From the IMG/VR virus record IMGVR_UViG_3300025087_000164, positions 1 through 41,505 of that record: 41,505 nt of DNA. One strand, written 5' to 3'. The stretch is from a virus. Below, in pieces: positions 3,960 through 35,386 of the stretch; the stretch's first letter is position 1, and every line of letters begins with the position of its first letter. The notes beneath the pieces were generated by a model that worked only from the letters and a program-made list of their open reading frames with translations, was not told where the DNA came from and made no database searches. The translations under genes were made by a program, and so were the position numbers.

Positions 3960-3973
3960 TCCCTCAATAAAAA

Positions 3974-4045
3974 ACTGCCCTCTCTAAAACCCCTTGCCAG
4001 GTGGATCCTTTAGGATACTTTTGGCTAAGAGTAGATAAGGGCAGT
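3974..4045 (+). terminator. Nested RNA hairpin closing the lysis operon
   Basis: ACTGCCC (3974-3980) pairs with GGGCAGT (4039-4045). Inside are CTCT/AGAG (3982-3985/4028-4031), GCCA/TGGC (3996-3999/4022-4025) and ATCC-TTTA-GGAT (4005-4016). A U-rich but interrupted stretch (CTTTGATTTAATT) follows. It may be a terminator or a structured regulatory RNA. Confidence 0.45.
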
Positions 4046-4080
4046 CTTTGATTTAATTATCAGTTCGTAGTTTGGGGGAA

Positions 4081-4124
4081 GTCAAGGCACAAGAAAGCCC
4101 TTGACAAAAAAATGGCAAGGGCTT
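4081..4124. promoter_or_regulatory. Mutually exclusive hairpins
   Basis: GTCAAGG (4081-4087) can pair with CCTTGAC (4099-4105). The overlapping segment AAGCCCTTG (4095-4103) can instead pair with CAAGGGCTT (4116-4124). The two stems cannot form together, an attenuator-like arrangement. On the minus strand the second stem starts at the stop codon of the candidate gene at 4123-4311 and could be its terminator. Confidence 0.4.
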
Positions 4125-4311
4125 ATCTTGAACTATGTTCAATAGCAACTGCTATTATACCACCCCAAGTATACTTCTTGTCAAGAATTTCCGCAGTTTT
4201 TCCGCATTTGTAACAGGATACCAACACGGCAGTTCCACAAGTCCTGTCTAAAACGGCAAACGGAAAGCCATTAAACCGATTGTGGAAGCAGGGTTCAGGG
4301 CGGACACCCAA
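4123..4311 (-). CDS. Possible minus-strand zinc-ribbon-like protein (doubtful)
   Basis: 62 codons from a TTG at 4311 to TAA at 4123-4125. The middle reads RTCGTAVLVSCYKCGK, with spaced cysteines resembling a small zinc-binding fold. It would be the only gene on this strand. There is no ribosome-binding site. The frame is open further upstream to an ATG at 4344 except for one in-frame TGA (4324-4326), so it could be a decayed gene. A hairpin just after the stop could serve as a terminator. Real gene, pseudogene and chance frame are all possible. Confidence 0.3.
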   Translation of the reverse strand: MGVRPEPCFHNRFNGFPFAVLDRTCGTAVLVSCYKCGKTAEILDKKYTWGGIIAVAIEHSSR

Positions 4312-4887: not shown

Positions 4888-5018
4888 ACCCAATAGAAAT
4901 AATGAAGACCTTAATGGAAATTGTAGAGGGGGAGAGGGAATTTGAAGACAAATTACTGAAAATGATTGACGAAAGAAATAAAGCCGTACTAAAAGCCTTA
5001 AAAAAAATAAAACCATGA
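4884..5018 (+). CDS. Small coiled-coil protein (44 aa)
   Basis: Overlaps both neighbours by ATGA. Most of its length is one amphipathic, highly charged helix (for example EREFEDKLLKMIDERNKAV) ending in a Lys-rich tail. It is probably co-translated with the ERF protein that follows and could be a partner of it; no direct evidence of function. Confidence 0.55.
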   Translation: MNPIEIMKTLMEIVEGEREFEDKLLKMIDERNKAVLKALKKIKP

Positions 5019-5524: not shown

Positions 5525-5763
5525 CAGGATACAAAGAAGATAAAACCCAAGAGCAAAGGATTTTGGATCTTCTTAGAGAAAGAGGAATAGAAGGGGTTTA
5601 TGTCTATGAGTTTATGACTCCCCGGCCAGTCGGCTGCGGAATTGCACAGTATAATGCTCGCATCTACGGACTTAGGAAGAAGGGATATATTATAGATAAT
5701 AAGGAACCTGGACACTTTGTTCTCAAAGGGGAGCCAACGCCCGAGCAATCCAGTCTTATATGA
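5521..5763 (+). CDS. Small winged-helix DNA-binding protein (HTH_39-like)
   Basis: 80 residues from the ATG that overlaps the ERF stop. The pattern RILDLLRERGIEGVYVYEF ... IAQYNARIYGLRKKGYII ... PGHFVL is that of short phage helix-turn-helix proteins in which a recognition helix is followed by a beta wing. An upstream in-frame start would sit inside erf and is rejected. Likely a sequence-specific DNA binder of the replication operon; the target is unknown. Confidence 0.7.
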   Translation: MTGYKEDKTQEQRILDLLRERGIEGVYVYEFMTPRPVGCGIAQYNARIYGLRKKGYIIDNKEPGHFVLKGEPTPEQSSLI

Positions 5764-5764
5764 A

Positions 5765-5920
5765 ATGGCAACCAAATTTATTCAAGTTAAATCTTTTACC
5801 CAAAAGGGTATTGTTTATACAATCCGGAAAGATGGTAGGAGTTATAAATGTAATTGCCCAGCCTTTATCTTTAGCGGAAAGGAATGTAAACACTTAAAAA
5901 AGATAAAAGCTAAGAAATGA
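5765..5920 (+). CDS. Stand-alone SWIM-type zinc finger (51 aa)
   Basis: A basic protein whose core is YKCNCPAFIF-SGKECKHLKK, which fits the CxCx(n)CxH pattern of SWIM zinc fingers, preceded by a short beta hairpin (GIVYTIRKDGRS). SWIM domains usually bind DNA or protein as part of larger enzymes; here the domain is nearly the whole protein. Start chosen at 5765; an ATG at 5760 is in another frame. It may assist the annealing protein two genes upstream. Confidence 0.7.
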   Translation: MATKFIQVKSFTQKGIVYTIRKDGRSYKCNCPAFIFSGKECKHLKKIKAKK

Positions 5921-6709: not shown

Positions 6710-7123
6710 ATGAAACTAGAACAACAAATAACCAATTTAGAATTATCAAAGAAACTCGAAGAGCTTGGAGTAAAGCAGGAGAGTTTGTTTTATTGGGGAG
6801 AAAGACCATATGGGAAAAATAGAAAGCCGTGGGTGCCAGAGATTTTTGGAGAAGATGCCCCATTTGGTGAAGGGGTAGCCAAGATTGCTTCCGCCTTTAC
6901 CGTTGCTGAGTTGGGAACTTTATTGCCCAAGTCAATTCAGATAAGAGAAGAGGTTTTTTGGCTACAAATTGAGCCTCAGGGAGTTCAAGATGGATGGGCT
7001 TGCCAATATAGAAACATTGCTACCAAGTTTGGATTTGTTCCTAAGTTTTTTGAGGATAAAAGTATGACCAATGCTATGGCCAAAATGCTTATTTATTTAA
7101 TAGAAAACAAATTACTTAAATGA
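6710..7123 (+). CDS. Conserved-type phage hypothetical protein
   Basis: 137 residues starting 1 nt after the upstream stop. It opens with a helical LELSKKLEELGVKQESLFYW, has FTVAELGTLLPK in the middle and ends AMAKMLIYLIENKLLK. This layout occurs in many phage early regions, but I know no assigned activity. Trp and aromatic content suggest a folded domain. The last codons overlap the next gene. Confidence 0.65.
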   Translation: MKLEQQITNLELSKKLEELGVKQESLFYWGERPYGKNRKPWVPEIFGEDAPFGEGVAKIASAFTVAELGTLLPKSIQIREEVFWLQIEPQGVQDGWACQYRNIATKFGFVPKFFEDKSMTNAMAKMLIYLIENKLLK

Positions 7124-7458
7124 CTAAACCAAAAGCAGAAAAAGGGAGAGAGATAAAGATGAAAATAATTAAAATAACAGAAAGCCTTATTAAGTTTGAC
7201 AATGGCACCGAGATTACTTTTTCTCACGACCAAGACTGTTGTGAGCAGGTTTATGCTGATTTCAATTCTCTAAAAGACCAGGACATAAAAAAGAAAACAT
7301 TTAAGGAGATTAAGATAAGAGGAGTCAGGGGTTCTGGGTTCAGACTTAATGAGTATTTTATACCTTGCTACAATGAACAAAATGGCTATTATTCTTCCAA
7401 ATACTCGGACTTGCCCCGCCCAAAGCTCTTAAAAGTAGAGGACTTTGTAAGGGGGTGA
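7120..7458 (+). CDS. Small protein with HDQDCCE motif (DUF7448-like?)
   Basis: 112 residues; an internal ATG at about codon 14 is an alternative start. The middle reads NGTEITFSHDQDCCEQVYADF, a motif I associate with a small uncharacterised phage family, followed by a mixed beta region with Tyr-rich tail (NEQNGYYSSKYSD). The Cys pair next to His and Asp suggests metal binding. Function unknown. It overlaps the upstream gene (ATGA). Confidence 0.6.
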   Translation: MTKPKAEKGREIKMKIIKITESLIKFDNGTEITFSHDQDCCEQVYADFNSLKDQDIKKKTFKEIKIRGVRGSGFRLNEYFIPCYNEQNGYYSSKYSDLPRPKLLKVEDFVRG

Positions 7459-7463
7459 TTAAA

Positions 7464-7805
7464 ATGACAAAAAAGAATCAAGCCAAATTTTTAGGGTTAA
7501 TAATTCTCGGATTCGGACTAGGAATTGGTTATGTTCTAGCAGATAATCTCGTTGTTCCAAAATTACTACCACGAACTACAGCACAAATTGAGGAAAGAAA
7601 AATTCGGGATTACAAAGAAGTTGAATCTGTCTGCGGAGAAAACAATGTTTCTGAATTATGTAGTGATGGCACGAACGGCTGTAAGGTGATAACAGGTTTT
7701 GCCTGTAACAACTATAAAAATGCGGTACATAAAGAGGAAATAGAAAAAGAAAGAAAAGAGCGTGAAGAACAATATAGACGGGAATTTCCAGAGTATTACA
7801 AGTAA
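7464..7805 (+). CDS. Membrane-anchored small extracytoplasmic protein
   Basis: 113 residues from the ATG at 7464, chosen over the GTG at 7455 because GGGGGTGA sits at ribosome-binding distance. Residues 9-28 form a membrane segment rich in glycine (LGLIILGFGLGIGYVL). The rest is polar with four cysteines (VCGENN, ELCSDG, GCKVI, FACNN) likely paired outside the cytoplasm, then a highly charged Glu/Arg helix. It could be an envelope or superinfection-related protein. No family recognised. Confidence 0.6.
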   Translation: MTKKNQAKFLGLIILGFGLGIGYVLADNLVVPKLLPRTTAQIEERKIRDYKEVESVCGENNVSELCSDGTNGCKVITGFACNNYKNAVHKEEIEKERKEREEQYRREFPEYYK

Positions 7806-7932
7806 CTCTCTTTGAGGAGGTTTACTCTAGGATTGTAGGGTAATGCTTTAGCGATAGGGCATTGTCAATCCCTTCGGGGGTTGTAAGTTATCGCCCATCA
7901 ATCCTAGATTAAGCCCCCCTACAAAGGCAGAG
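7806..7932 (+). ncRNA. Predicted structured RNA with long helix, pseudoknot and UUCG hairpin
   Basis: Begins right after the stop at 7805. Closing stem CTCTCTTTG (7806-7814) with CAAAG/AGAG (7922-7932, 2-nt bulge). Long helix: TCTAGGATTG (7826-7835) with CAATCCTAGA (7899-7908), perfect over 10 bp and extended through GGTTTA/TTAAGCC and GG/CC (about 7816-7824 with 7910-7918). Inside are AATGC (7842-7846)/GCATT (7859-7863), GCGATA (7851-7856)/TATCGC (7889-7894) crossing it as an H-type pseudoknot, and CAATCCC-TTCG-GGGGTTG (7866-7883). No known class recognised. It could be a free small RNA or an mRNA leader control element. Confidence 0.7.
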
Positions 7933-7965
7933 AGGCCGGTAAGGAGGGTTTGAGAGTAAGAGGAT

Positions 7966-7987
7966 AACACCCTTTGATTAACTAAGA
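7966..7987 (+). repeat. Variant copy of the 20-bp gene-boundary repeat
   Basis: AACACCCTTTGATTAACTAAGA, a two-insertion variant of the exact repeat at 8251 and 8931, ending directly before the ATG at 7988. Confidence 0.65.
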
Positions 7988-8248
7988 ATGAAAAGAATAA
8001 ATAAAAAAAGAATGGCTGGAATTGAATTTACTAACGAGGCGTTGGGTGTTCTTTCTTTAATTGGTAAAACATCAAAAGACCCAACAGAACGAAGAATTAT
8101 CCGTATAAGAAGAAATTTGGAGTTGGCGGTGGATTCACTTAATAAAGAGCTTGTACGACATATCCCTAAGATTAAAATCAGGAGAATAAGTATTGAAAAG
8201 GTTGGCGAGGTAGAAATACACAGAACTTTACCAGACTATAAAACTTAA
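7988..8248 (+). CDS. Small basic hypothetical protein (86 aa)
   Basis: Very rich in Arg/Lys/Ile (for example RRIIRIRRNLELAVDSL and IPKIKIRRISIEK), with no cysteines or membrane segment. It may bind nucleic acid through its basic surface, but no fold is recognised. It is bounded upstream by the structured RNA and a boundary repeat, and downstream by a second repeat copy, so it is probably a separately acquired cassette. Confidence 0.6.
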   Translation: MKRINKKRMAGIEFTNEALGVLSLIGKTSKDPTERRIIRIRRNLELAVDSLNKELVRHIPKIKIRRISIEKVGEVEIHRTLPDYKT

Positions 8249-8250
8249 CT

Positions 8251-8270
8251 AACACCCTGATTTACTAAGA
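8251..8270 (+). repeat. 20-bp direct repeat, copy 1 (left of RNA ligase)
   Basis: AACACCCTGATTTACTAAGA, identical to 8931-8950. The two copies bracket the RNA ligase gene exactly, each starting at or within a few bases of a stop codon. Confidence 0.9.
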
Positions 8271-8281
8271 AGAAAAAGAAT

Positions 8282-8932
8282 ATGGAATATCACAAAATAA
8301 ATTCAATCTACAAGAGAGATATGAGTAAACCCAATGCCCCATTTATTGTGGGGGAATGGGCTGACCCTGCGTTTGATTATCTTCAGAGCAACCAGTGGGA
8401 GTTTACCGAAAAAGTTGACGGAACAAATATCCGTGTAATGTTTAATGGAAAGGACATTGTTTTTGGAGGAAAGACGGATAACGCCCAAATACCTGCACAT
8501 CTCACCAATAAGCTTAATGATACATTTCTAACGATTACCAAAAGAAAACTCTTAATGGATATGTTCAACAAAGAAGGGGAAGAAACCAATGTCATCTTAT
8601 ATGGAGAAGGTTTCGGTTTCAAAATTCAAGGCAAGGTTGGTGTTGATTACTTGATGAATGATGTAGATTTTATGCTTTTTGATGTAAAGGTTGGAGATTG
8701 GTGGCTTGAAAGGAAAAATGTTTATGATATTGGGCAAAAGCTAGGATTAAGAGTCAGTCCCGCTGTCGGATATGGAACAATAAACGAAGCTGTAAAGCTT
8801 GTAAAAAAAGGATTTAAGTCATCTTTTGGAACGGCTGATGCTGAAGGTTTAGTATTAAGACCTGCTTGTGAATTGAAAACCAGAAGTGGCGATAGAATTA
8901 TTACAAAAATTAAAGTTAGAGATTTTAACTAA
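8282..8932 (+). CDS. RNA ligase (Rnl2-like nucleotidyltransferase domain)
   Basis: 216 residues, an isolated adenylyltransferase core. Motif I is K44 in EKVDGTNIRV (the AMP-accepting lysine). YGEGFG (about 111) fits motif III, AEGLVLRP (about 196) motif IV, and ITKIKVRDF at the C-terminus motif V. Such enzymes seal 3'-OH/5'-P RNA ends using ATP, as in phage tRNA repair. There is no polynucleotide kinase and no tRNA gene nearby; the structured RNA at 7806 lies 350 nt upstream. The gene is flanked by exact 20-bp repeats and looks more AT-rich than the head genes, as a cassette would. Some of these cores are C-terminally truncated relative to T4 Rnl2. Confidence 0.85.
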   Translation: MEYHKINSIYKRDMSKPNAPFIVGEWADPAFDYLQSNQWEFTEKVDGTNIRVMFNGKDIVFGGKTDNAQIPAHLTNKLNDTFLTITKRKLLMDMFNKEGEETNVILYGEGFGFKIQGKVGVDYLMNDVDFMLFDVKVGDWWLERKNVYDIGQKLGLRVSPAVGYGTINEAVKLVKKGFKSSFGTADAEGLVLRPACELKTRSGDRIITKIKVRDFN

Positions 8933-8950
8933 CACCCTGATTTACTAAGA
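8931..8950 (+). repeat. 20-bp direct repeat, copy 2 (right of RNA ligase)
   Basis: Exact copy of 8251-8270. It contains the last two bases of the ligase stop and its final base is the A of the next ATG (8950). Confidence 0.9.
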
Positions 8951-17781: not shown

Positions 17782-18756
17782 ATGAGCGCATTTGAGATAA
17801 AAGAAAATTTACCAAAAGACACACAGAACGAACTCGAAAGAATCGAGGCAATTTCCAGTGGATTAAGAACCACGGGCGAAGCGAACTTCCTAACCGCTCG
17901 TGCCCCTTACCGGACCAATAGGGTTATCAGGTGGGATACGACATTGGTCCAGGGGTCGACAAATCCTACCCATCTTTCAACTGATAACATCCTAGAAGCT
18001 GAAGGCAATACTCTTCCTACGGGATACGAGGGGTTTAAGCATGGAGCTGTATTCTATGACCTTGATAAGAACGGGAACAATGTTTATATAAACACGGGTG
18101 ATAGTGATTATGCTATATGGACTCAGGCAATAGAATCTGAGATAGCGTCCGGGTCAGCCTCTGGTTCGCCATCTGCATCAAAATCTCTATCTCCGTCAGC
18201 CTCTGGTTCGCCATCGCTCAGCATCTCGGCATCTTTATCCCCATCAGCATCCGGGAGCAAGTCGGCTAGCCCTTCACCATCTTTGTCCCCATCAGCCTCT
18301 GGTTCGGCTAGCGGAAGTAAGTCTGCCAGTCCGTCGGCTTCTGAATCTGCGAGTGGTAGTGCTTCTGAATCTGCGAGTGCCTCTGCCTCCCTTAGTCCAT
18401 CGGGGTCGGCTAGTGCCAGTGAAAGTAAATCCGCCAGCCCGTCGGGTAGTCTTAGTCCATCAGGAAGCCTATCTCCTTCTGCATCAGAAAGTGCCAGTGC
18501 CTCGGCATCCGAGAGTGCCAGTGCCAGTAAGTCGGCTAGTCCGTCGGCCTCGGAGTCTGCGTCTATCAGCCCATCTGCTTCAAAGTCTCCATCAGCCAGT
18601 GCCAGTAAGTCGGAATCCAAAAGTGCCAGCCCGTCTGGAAGCGCCTCACCCTCCGCTAGTGGCTCAAAGTCCGTCAGCCCATCGTACAGCCCCTCAGGGT
18701 CACTTTCACCATCTGCAAGCCTAAGCCCGTCAAGTTCACCATCGTTCCCGCCATAA
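17782..18756 (+). CDS. Capsid-fibre/decoration-like protein with a Ser-rich repeat tail
   Basis: 324 residues. The N-terminal 120 residues hold a small folded domain ending [20 protein letters not shown] and [15 protein letters not shown], a pattern seen in phage head-fibre/decoration domains. From about residue 122 to the end the protein is a Ser/Ala/Pro/Lys/Glu repeat (SPSASxS units). It lies directly behind the capsid gene. The tail is probably an extended, exposed rod and a candidate for O-glycosylation by the downstream enzymes. It ends SSSPSFPP with no anchor. Confidence 0.75.
18145..18750 (+). repeat. Coding Ser-rich repeat tract 1 (SPSAS type)
   Basis: About 200 codons, roughly half serine, with Ala, Pro, Lys, Glu, Gly and Leu between. 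All six serine codons are used, so protein periodicity is high and DNA identity between units is low. Confidence 0.95.
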
Positions 18757-18757
18757 T

Positions 18758-19090
18758 ATGATTGAAATACCAACAGACAAATTTGGAAGGGCAATACAAA
18801 TAACGCCAAGAGCGGTAGCCCTGGCCAGGACGATAGATGCGTCGATTTCAGTCTCTACAGAGATTACTCTAAACGCCGACACGACCTTTCTTCGTGTTTA
18901 CGCTATCGCCAAGGATGTTTATTTAAAGTGGGGAATAGAGGATGTAGATACTAATACTTTCGATGAGGTTATTCCGTCTGCTCAGGTCGTGGACTTGGTG
19001 GTTCCCTTACAAGCTGATGGAACACCCTACACGGCCATCAATGTTATTGAAAGAGAATCCGGGGCAACGGTTATAATAATCGAAAAATAA
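18758..19090 (+). CDS. Small beta-rich virion protein
   Basis: 110 residues, one nucleotide after the upstream stop. Alternating hydrophobic strands (TEITLNADTTFLRVYAIAKD, VYLKWGIEDVDT, VVDLVVPLQADG) suggest a beta sandwich without repeats. It sits between two SRR genes of the head region and is most likely a capsid surface or connector protein. Family not assigned. Confidence 0.6.
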   Translation: MIEIPTDKFGRAIQITPRAVALARTIDASISVSTEITLNADTTFLRVYAIAKDVYLKWGIEDVDTNTFDEVIPSAQVVDLVVPLQADGTPYTAINVIERESGATVIIIEK

Positions 19091-19145
19091 TGTGGTCCTT
19101 ATATGGAATCTAATCGACACTTCTAACCTCTTAATTAAACTTCAA

Positions 19146-19153
19146 AAGGAGGT
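19146..19153 (+). promoter_or_regulatory. Strong Shine-Dalgarno before the long SRR gene
   Basis: AAGGAGGT with 8 nt to the ATG at 19162. Notable because many neighbouring starts lack such a site. Confidence 0.8.
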
Positions 19154-19161
19154 AGACTAAT

Positions 19162-21186
19162 ATGGCTCAATTTGCCAGACCCGATGGGGATAATGCAACT
19201 GGCTCATGGCTAGCTACACCTCTCTGGTCGAAATTAGATGAGGTAAGTTTTGATGATGCCGACTTTATTCAATCAACGGGTGCGGGCGAATCCTTCTGTG
19301 TACTTAATCTCTCCGATGTAACTGACCCTGCGGTTGGCACTGGACACATTATCCGTTTCAGAATGCGAGCCGCAGGAAGCGGTGGGCCCGAGAACCTTAC
19401 TCTTGAACTATTAGAAGGCGGTTCTGTAATAGCAATCATGAATAACCAGACCAACCGCAGTTCCAGCTTTGCCGAGAAAACATATACGCTGAGTGCGGGG
19501 GAAGCAGACTCTATTACTGACTACACCAACCTTGCTTTGCGTTTTACCCCTTCTCACGGCGATACCGAAACAATAGATGTGAGCTGGGCGGAGTTTGAAG
19601 TCCCTGATGCCACAGGTACGGTTTCTTCTTCACCTTCTGGCTCGGCATCCTTGTCCCCCTCTGCTAGTCTTAGTCAATCCGCCAGCCTTTCCCCATCCGC
19701 TTCTTTATCTCCAAGCGCATCTGAAAGTCCTTCAGCATCTCTTTCCCCATCCGCTTCCTTATCTGAAAGTGCGTCCCTCAGTCCCAGTGCAAGTTTATCC
19801 CCTTCTGCCTCATTAAGTCCGTCAGCGTCTTTGTCGCCCAGCGCTTCCCTTTCCTTCTCAGCTAGTGAAAGCCCCAGCGCATCAGAGAGTAAAAGTCTAA
19901 GTCCTTCGGAATCGGGCAGTTTCAGCGCTTCGCCTTCAGGATCGGAATCCCCATCCGCTTCCGAAAGTAAGTCGGCCTCACCATCTGGTTCAGAATCCAA
20001 ATCTCTAAGCCCATCTGGTAGTGAAAGTCCTAGTGCCTCTGAGTCAAAAAGTCAGTCCCCGTCGGCTTCGGAAAGCAAATCACTCTCTCCATCGGCAAGC
20101 CTATCTCCCTCAGCCAGTGAGTCAAAATCTCTTTCGCCTAGTGCATCGGAATCTAAGTCATTATCTCCCAGTGCGTCAGAGAGCAAATCTGCAAGCGCTA
20201 GCGAAAGTCCATCCGAATCTCCGTCAGAGTCGAAAAGTTTGAGCCCTTCTGCATCAGAATCCAAAAGCGCCTCTCCCTCGGAAAGTCCAAGTGAATCTCC
20301 TTCAGAAAGCAAGAGCTTGTCACCTTCTGCCAGTGAATCTAAATCCGCCAGTAAGTCAGCTTCGGCCTCTGAATCTGCTAGTGAATCAAAGAGCCTTTCC
20401 CCATCGGCTTCAGAGTCCAAGAGTGCCTCTGCCTCTGCCAGTCCATCAGGTGTGGGTTCAGGTTCGGCTAGCCTTAGTCCTTCGGCTTCAGAGTCAAAGA
20501 GTTTATCTCCTTCCGCATCAGAGTCTAAATCTGGTTCTGCCAGTGAAAGTAAAAGTTTATCCCCCTCGGCCAGCGGGAGTAAGTCGGAATCTGCCTCAGA
20601 AAGCAAGTCTTTAAGTCCGAGTGGGTCGGAATCTAAAAGTGGTTCTGCTTCTGAGAGCAAATCCCTTAGCCCGAGTGCAAGCGAATCTAAGTCGGGGTCT
20701 GCTTCCGAAAGTAAATCATTGTCGCCCTCCGCATCGGAATCATTCTCCAGTAGTGCATCCGGTTCTAAAAGTTTAAGCCCATCAGCCAGTGCGAGTGCAT
20801 CTGAAAGCCTGAGCGAGAGTAAATCCTTGTCACCTTCAGCTTCGGGTTCCAAAAGCGAATCCCCTTCGGTAAGTTCAAGTCAAAGCCCATCAGGGTCGGA
20901 AAGTAAATCGGAGTCTCCTAGTGTTTCTCCATCCGAATCCCCATCCGTATCGGCGAGTCTAAGCCCCTCTGGGTCGGCATCTAAAAGTGCATCGGCCTCT
21001 CAATCACCAAGCGAAAGCCTATCAGAAAGTGCCAGTCTATCTCCATCCGCTTCAATGTCGGCAAGTCTCTCACCAAGCAGAAGCGAATCCCCTAGTCCGA
21101 GCCCTAGTGCCGAAGAGGATGGGTCAGTAAAAACACCAAGATTCCAAGCAAATCTAAATCTATTAAAGAACTTTGGTTGCCGGTAA
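19162..21186 (+). CDS. Long Ser-rich-repeat virion protein with N-terminal beta-sandwich
   Basis: 674 residues. Residues 1-150 form a beta-sandwich-like domain ([56 protein letters not shown]) resembling carbohydrate-binding or jelly-roll folds. Residues about 153-650 are SPSAS-type repeats. The last 24 residues ([22 protein letters not shown]) are unique and end in Cys-Arg, possibly an attachment point. It is the largest SRR protein here, probably a long fibre on the head or neck. No anchor or protease domain is visible. Confidence 0.75.
19621..21110 (+). repeat. Coding Ser-rich repeat tract 2 (longest)
   Basis: About 495 codons of SPSASxSxS units, with recurring [15 protein letters not shown] blocks. 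Serine codons alternate among all six. Antisense frames through it are open only because of this composition. Confidence 0.95.
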
Positions 21187-34114: not shown

Positions 34115-35386
34115 ATGGCACAGCTTTTAGATACTTCCCTTTTTAATGATGCCAACTTGGTGGCTTACTACCGAACGGAAAGCGGGGCATTAACTACCGA
34201 CTCCAAAGGTAGTTTTACTTTAACTAACAACAATACTGTTGGCGAGGATACTGGCAAATATGGCGGTGCGGCAGACTTTGGGACAGCAAATACCGACAAA
34301 TCTCTAAGTATAGTTAATGATTTGGGGGTTCAAGGTGGAGCGTGTAGTTTGGTTGGTTGGCTCAAAGCGAATACAGCTATACCTGACGGTGGGAGTTGGA
34401 TGTTTGTTGGGGTAGAGGATGCTGGAACTTCTGTCAATTATGCAATTGTTTATTCTAGGACTGGTGCGACAAGAACCTTAACTTTCAGGCGCTATAGGCA
34501 GGGGGTTTCGGGGGATGAAATTTCTTACAATGTTGATTTAGGAACGACTTATCATCAAATAGTTTTGACTTATGACGCAACGAACCTTCGGGGATACTTG
34601 GATAATGTTTTGGTGGCTGGGCCAACGGCGTTTTCTGGGAACGGGAGTGGAGTTACGGCAGATATGTTTTCCATTGGTAACTTTAGAGGATTGGCGACTG
34701 GAAATGGCAGTTATGCTTCAATAGATGCAGATGATGTGGCGGTATTTACAAAGGCGCTTTCGGTGGCAGAGATTGACACTCTTTTTATAGATGGCAGTCC
34801 CTCCCTTTCCCCATCCGCCAGCTTAAGTCCCTCTGCTTCTCTTTCTCCTTCAGCGTCTTTGTCTCCGAGCGCATCTGCCTCTAAATCTGCTAGTGCATCG
34901 GAATCAAAATCCCTTTCACCTTCGGGCTCTTTAAGTCCTTCAGCTTCTGGTAGTGCATCTGGTTCTAAAAGTTTGAGTCCTTCTGCCAGTGAATCTAAAT
35001 CCCTTTCCCCCAGTGCATCAGAATCCAAAAGTGCTTCTCTTAGTGAATCGAAGTCGCTAAGTCCTTCAGCTTCCGAATCTAAATCGGCAAGCGCAAGTGA
35101 ATCCAAAAGCGCATCTGCTTCCGAATCTAAATCTGAATCAGCATCAGAATCTGCTTCGGGGTCGGCTTCTTTAAGCCCTAGTGCTAGTTTAAGTCCCAGT
35201 GCTTCGGTTTCTGCTTCTCTATCCCCTAGTGCCAGTGCAAGCCCCTCGGTTAGCCCATCAGCATCGCCTTCCCCAGCGGCTTATACTGATAAATATACAA
35301 CACAGGGAACTGCTTATACGGATAAATACTCAATTCAAGGAACGGCCTATACTGACAAGTATAAAAAGTTTCCTAATCTTCCATAG
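34115..35386 (+). CDS. LamG-like fibre protein with Ser-rich repeat
   Basis: 423 residues. Residues 1-225 fit a LamG/concanavalin-like jelly roll ([60 protein letters not shown]). Residues 228-388 are SPSAS repeats. The end has three copies of AYTDKYxxQGT. LamG domains often bind sugars, so this may be a receptor-binding or virion fibre protein with a repeat stalk. It has its own promoter-like box. Confidence 0.78.
34795..35277 (+). repeat. Coding Ser-rich repeat tract 3
   Basis: About 160 codons of SPSAS/SESKS units between the LamG-like domain and the C-terminal AYTDKY repeats. Confidence 0.93.
35278..35366 (+). repeat. Triple AYTDKY repeat
   Basis: Three near-identical 10-11-residue units ([31 protein letters not shown]) at the fibre C-terminus, differing at the DNA level mainly in third codon positions. 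Perhaps an attachment or trimerisation tip. Confidence 0.85.

Follow-up and report, generated by a model that had tools for sequence, protein, structure and literature searches.

A strongly folded intercistronic hairpin upstream of the terminase genes of a tailed virus, and comparable hairpins in related viruses

The structure formed by positions 7806-7932 of the window (the whole stretch of 41,505 nucleotides analysed here) is real, and hairpins of comparable build lie between the genes of several related viruses. Our preferred explanation, offered tentatively, is that the element is transcribed as a cis-acting intercistronic hairpin, the long helix of which would act as an RNase III-type processing or stability site dividing a polycistronic mRNA. 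The element falls outside the known RNA families, yet it is most likely an intercistronic hairpin of an ordinary kind.

Position, fold and uniqueness of the element

The record is that of a 41.5-kb virus with a 157-bp direct terminal repeat, in which the + strand holds nearly all the larger ORFs. The preliminary description placed the element between a stop codon and the next cassette, and this is its position. The upstream ORF ends with TAA at 7803-7805, the element starts at 7806 and the next ORF at 7988, leaving 56 nt from the end of the element to the next ATG. terL lies 3.9 kb downstream. The closing stem, long helix, 10-bp core and seven-pair UUCG hairpin of the same description are also present where it had placed them. 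The features are summarized in Table 1.

Table 1. Coordinates of the element, its parts and the neighboring genes in the window
Feature	Coordinates	Strand	Remarks
Upstream ORF, 116 aa, orphan	7455..7805	+	No Pfam or PHROG match; stop adjoins element
Whole structured element	7806..7932	+	Starts at first base after stop codon of ORF 7455-7805
Closing stem, 5' strand	7806..7814	+	Pairs with 7922-7932 in MFE fold; rival pairings in longer context
Lower long helix, 5' arm GGAGGUUUA	7816..7824	+	Partner UUAAGCCCCCC 7909-7919; alternative nearly isoenergetic
Perfect 10-bp core, 5' strand UCUAGGAUUG	7826..7835	+	Pair probability ~1 in all contexts folded
Inner hairpin 1, AAUGCUUUA/UAGGGCAUU, GCGA loop	7842..7863	+	Contains proposed pseudoknot stem 1
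Inner hairpin 2, CAAUCCC-UUCG-GGGGUUG, seven pairs	7866..7883	+	MFE fold
UAUCGC, proposed pseudoknot partner of GCGAUA 7851-7856	7889..7894	+	Not above chance
Perfect 10-bp core, 3' strand CAAUCCUAGA	7899..7908	+	Pair probability ~1 in all contexts folded
Lower long helix, 3' arm UUAAGCCCCCC	7909..7919	+	MFE fold
Closing stem, 3' strand CAAAGGCAGAG	7922..7932	+	MFE fold
AAGGAGGGUUUGA, near-copy of 5' arm	7941..7953	+	Can displace 5' arm by pairing with 7909-7919
Downstream ORF, 86 aa, orphan	7988..8248	+	First of three genes with similar leaders
RNA ligase gene	8282..8932	+	L021 ligase 78% identical, flanked by hairpins of same build

Folded alone, the + strand of the element has a minimum free energy of −54.1 kcal/mol, compared with −33.8 ± 3.5 kcal/mol for 200 dinucleotide shuffles (z = −5.79). 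None of the shuffles folded as well, and the element thus passes the comparison with shuffled sequence proposed for it earlier. The minus strand folds less well, at −43.2. In a scan of both strands of the 41.5-kb genome this was the top fold of 130 nt, and only one such element was found. The long helix counts 22 bp with a duplex energy of −29.9, and includes a U·G wobble at 7821/7913 in its lower part. An imperfect 25-nt inverted repeat in the element is 80% complementary. Support is good for both the long helix and the three-way inner fold, and the latter is present in every minimum-energy structure printed. The inner domain (~63 nt) is itself significantly folded, with z = −2.8 for the inner part alone.

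The preliminary description also proposed an H-type pseudoknot in the inner domain. The complementary segments are present (AAUGC 7842-7846 with GCAUU 7859-7863, and GCGAUA 7851-7856 with UAUCGC 7889-7894), but the crossed pairing competes with a nested 9-pair hairpin, and the minimum-energy fold has this hairpin plus GGGU/GCCC. An equally strong pseudoknot is found in 9% of shuffled inner parts, whereas the nested fold is rarer by chance, with ~0.7% of shuffles as good. The pseudoknot is possible and unremarkable, and is not supported. To call the element elaborate is an overstatement, since the pseudoknot lies within chance and hairpins of the same build, with unrelated inner sequence, occur in related phages.

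When 7790-7935 is folded the lower helix and closing stem are preferred. Extending the sequence to 7790-8000 or further leaves the 10-bp core and the inner domain at a probability of ~1, and that of the lower helix and closing stem falls to ~0.1 because of competition with pairing to 7941-7953. The two states in 7790-8000 are within ~1 kcal/mol (−65.8 and −65.0 kcal/mol).

Searches agreed with the earlier failure to recognise a class. Rfam 15 gave no match at the gathering score over the window and none at E up to 10 for 7700-8050, nor any in ten hairpin-bearing relatives and other phages. ARAGORN found no tRNA or tmRNA genes in the window. An intrinsic terminator was considered and rejected; there is no T-run after 7932 and the terminator scan lists none there. 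The only DNA match, contig IMGVR 3300002097_000144, is 100% identical over the element, so that no covariation is obtainable. No diverged homologue came from phage records, pattern scans or neighbor-protein baits. A single blastn match to phage records was judged to be chance, and the pseudoknot pattern AATGCN4GCGATAN2GCATT occurs in 22 other IMG/VR contigs, none having the full fold. The core-helix pattern CTAGGATTG..CAATCCTAG was found in seven other contigs, with no recognisable shared genes and one weak 29-residue match, and in none of 380 Patescibacteria genomes. These matches are not homology because the pattern itself selects hairpins; they suggest that long hairpins are common in phages. 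As baits, the proteins of 7988-8248 and 6710-7123 returned the identical contig only, while that of 7120-7458 (DUF7448) found other viruses, the hairpins of which are unrelated in sequence to the element.

Host and hairpins of related viruses

In IMG/VR, dozens of relatives are found for the large terminase and the portal. Portal relatives are also present in genome contigs, 74% identical in a Woesebacteria MAG and 41% in a Paceibacterota MAG. A Patescibacteria host is therefore likely, an assignment made from relatives alone and open to binning errors. All three MAGs that carry related portals, of which two bear the labels Woesebacteria and Paceibacterota, encode an RNase III domain, and the virus encodes none. 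In the Paceibacterota MAG L130, the 16S rRNA lies between complementary arms of ~26 bp; such arms flanking 16S rRNA are a typical RNase III stem.

We scanned the intergenic windows of viruses with shared terminase and portal genes. Hairpins with a helix of 15-28 bp and a variable inner part of 22-65 nt, between a stop and a start codon, are found in L112 and the near-identical L056 and L057, in L069, L072 and L093, and also in L009, L013, L083, L078 and L007. Sense-strand helices with an energy of −24 kcal/mol or better occurred in 16 windows and in no dinucleotide shuffle of the same windows. With stricter masking, i.e. genes masked on both strands, they occurred in 14 of 1,196 windows, compared with none in the shuffles and none of 425 windows from other phage contigs, a small and imperfect control set that replaced a first one confounded by genes on both strands. 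The strongest hairpins (−26) lie on the sense strand in 12 of 13 cases (p = 0.003), as expected if selection acts on RNA rather than DNA. The sense helices contain 42 G·U pairs and 2 A·C mismatches, a count weakened by the choice of strand, which favors G·U but leaves the sense bias intact.

The hairpins begin near stop codons, and most end 7-60 nt ahead of the next start. Several are 1-2.5 kb upstream of terL. The downstream genes are all different and unrelated, so no single gene goes with the element, and the earlier suggestion that it might be riboswitch-like finds no support. Such a hairpin is missing from about half of the relatives in which enough upstream sequence is available. The inner parts are unrelated in sequence and mostly fold no better than shuffles.

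Four relatives (L112, L069, L072 and L093) have a common helix motif in which one U·G wobble is constant; with the arms aligned by hand, 10 of the 22 helix positions carry compensatory changes. In a leave-one-out test of the motif GAGGGUUU/AAAGCCC against shuffled helices these four members group together (p = 0.0005-0.005), and the element gave p = 0.078. The helix covariance model R1, trained with the element, recovers its four other members. With default filters it reported only the minus strand of the element (18.8 bits, E = 0.21), and without filters it missed the full-length element, perhaps through a limit on match length. In an unbiased count no helix word of 4-6 pairs clearly exceeded the null maximum; GUUU/AAGC occurred 7 times compared with 0.66 expected, which is suggestive only, several of the hairpins having caught attention before the tests were designed. 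The element has the architecture of the relatives' hairpins and a similar location, but these comparisons do not demonstrate a common origin.

A number of further features were noted in these genomes. In L021, two long hairpins (4906-4994 and 5645-5770) flank the RNA ligase related to that of the window, and three of the several hairpins inside the second have GAAA tetraloops. The inner part of L093 525-625 can form a crossed pairing of GCCAAGA/UCUUGGC with GGGGCU/AGCCCC that is reached by none of 200 shuffles, and is a better pseudoknot candidate than 7806-7932. The long hairpin at L007 5008-5100 has an inner sequence, GGTGGTTCGATTCCAC, that resembles a tRNA T-arm; ARAGORN calls no tRNA there. 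Two contigs with RNA ligase genes (L023 4177-4235 and L025 153-218) have a common hairpin stem GCCGGTAGGC/GCCTACCGGC and a similar inner part. In the window itself, similar leaders (7966-7990, 8245-8282 and 8925-8950; TTAACTAACACCCTGATTTACTAAGA) precede three consecutive genes including the RNA ligase, two copies being 94% alike over 33 nt. L069 and L112 have repeated leaders of their own with a similar look (TTACCAAAGAAGAATATG in L069). Such leaders are possibly a phage promoter or start-site signal. In the region 3966-4311, an ORF on the minus strand (4123-4311) encodes a CxxC motif and is followed on its 3' side by a long hairpin with a minus-strand T-run; it probably represents one of the rare reverse genes, equipped with a terminator of its own. 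Long stretches of degenerate serine-rich repeats, at 18136-21111 and 34802-35261, fall within large ORFs predicted in the structural region.

Possible functions of the element

The element, part of a long array of genes running one way in a tailed virus, is located upstream of the terminase and structural block. If it is transcribed with these genes, its function would lie mostly in the long, slightly imperfect helix of ~20 bp or more. A host RNase III-type nuclease may cut this helix, and/or the helix may block exonucleases, and the long polycistronic mRNA would be split into pieces that are separately stable or translatable. The variable three-way inner part would then be a stabilising cap and not a specific receptor. 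A processing or stability site fits better than a receptor because the helix of ~22 bp is intercistronic, slightly imperfect and on the sense strand, its cap varies and there is no U-run.

The features of an RNase III site can be compared directly. A near-continuous helix of ~20 bp or more is found here in the 22 bp, though the lower part competes in longer context. The position is intercistronic, the ORFs at 7455-7805 and 7988-8248 being on the same strand, and the enzyme is present in the lineage of the MAGs with related portals (3/3). Against a processing site, the inner domain exceeds what a minimal RNase III site requires in both size and degree of structure, and the lower helix is not the dominant pairing in longer context. 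One element in 41.5 kb provides one place to cut, around half of the relatives lack a hairpin, and the link of the element to the others through the helix motif is not significant (p = 0.08).

It is unlikely that the element is instead a free-standing phage non-coding RNA, a 127-nt piece released from the operon transcript that would act in trans, for instance as a ligand of a protein, of RNA polymerase or of the ribosome. The fold, compact and closed on itself, with its ends paired and its hairpins capped, would suit such an RNA, as would the significant inner fold and the two hairpins flanking the RNA ligase of L021, 78% identical to that of the window. Yet a trans-acting RNA is expected to conserve its business end, and there is no homologue with a conserved inner part; those of the relatives are unrelated and mostly fold at the level of shuffles.

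The competing pairing raises another explanation, that of a regulatory 5' leader or bistable switch in which 7909-7919 pairs with either 7816-7824 or 7941-7953, and ribosomes terminating at 7805 could shift the balance. We consider this rather improbable, even with the states so close in energy and the stop codon directly beside the 5' arm. The ATG at 7988 lies ~40 nt beyond the sequence at 7941, a greater distance than a normal ribosome-binding site allows, and no terminator-type U-run follows the element. Moreover, reading the four best relatives revealed no matching competitor, and the downstream genes of the relatives differ.

The location upstream of the terminase block, of a kind common to several relatives, could also suit a role in transcription, for example that of a processive antitermination RNA with which RNA polymerase is loaded at the boundary ahead of the genes for packaging and structure. 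Known RNAs of this type (EAR, put) are structured, intergenic, ~100-130 nt long and located inside operons, and the element resembles them in these respects. However, they keep a core, whereas here the inner parts are unconserved, no conserved core was found and there is no Rfam match; this role is very unlikely. A DNA-level inverted repeat acting in replication, packaging or recombination, with an incidental RNA fold, is just as improbable, because the repeat and its location in the kilobases before the terminase genes are set against the sense-strand position of the group's strongest hairpins, their excess of G·U over A·C (partly biased by strand choice) and the much better folding of the + strand.

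Significance and comparison with known systems

Transcript organisation in the viruses of Patescibacteria is little known, and their hosts are hard to culture. If the processing or stability site is the correct reading, hairpins recurring between genes at comparable places would offer a first way into the study of their RNA processing. A bolder proposal, which we regard as doubtful, is that Patescibacteria viruses share an undescribed intercistronic RNA class, in which a ~22-bp helix with a preferred GGUUU/AAGCC step plus wobble encloses a structured domain that evolves rapidly. A protein of the host or of the virus would recognise such RNAs at the packaging-gene border, and the element would count as a diverged and unusually elaborate example. 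Should a specific protein prove to bind the hairpins, they would be a new RNA class. At present the element mainly shows that strong folding energy alone does not imply a new functional RNA.

One comparison is with the hairpins of the same virus group, which share its helix length, variable inner part, sense strand and location between ORFs; the element differs in having no significant sequence relation to them. Intercistronic mRNA-stabilising hairpins are similar in lying between cistrons and in having a stable stem without a terminator U-run. The element differs from these in its three-way inner fold. In the early mRNA of T7, host RNase III cuts at five sites (PMC4858673). Compared with those sites (R1.1 type) the element has a larger structured inner domain and is present as a single copy in its genome, and its cleavage is a prediction. 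Both are long, slightly imperfect sense-strand helices that follow a stop codon and precede the next gene in a long phage operon.
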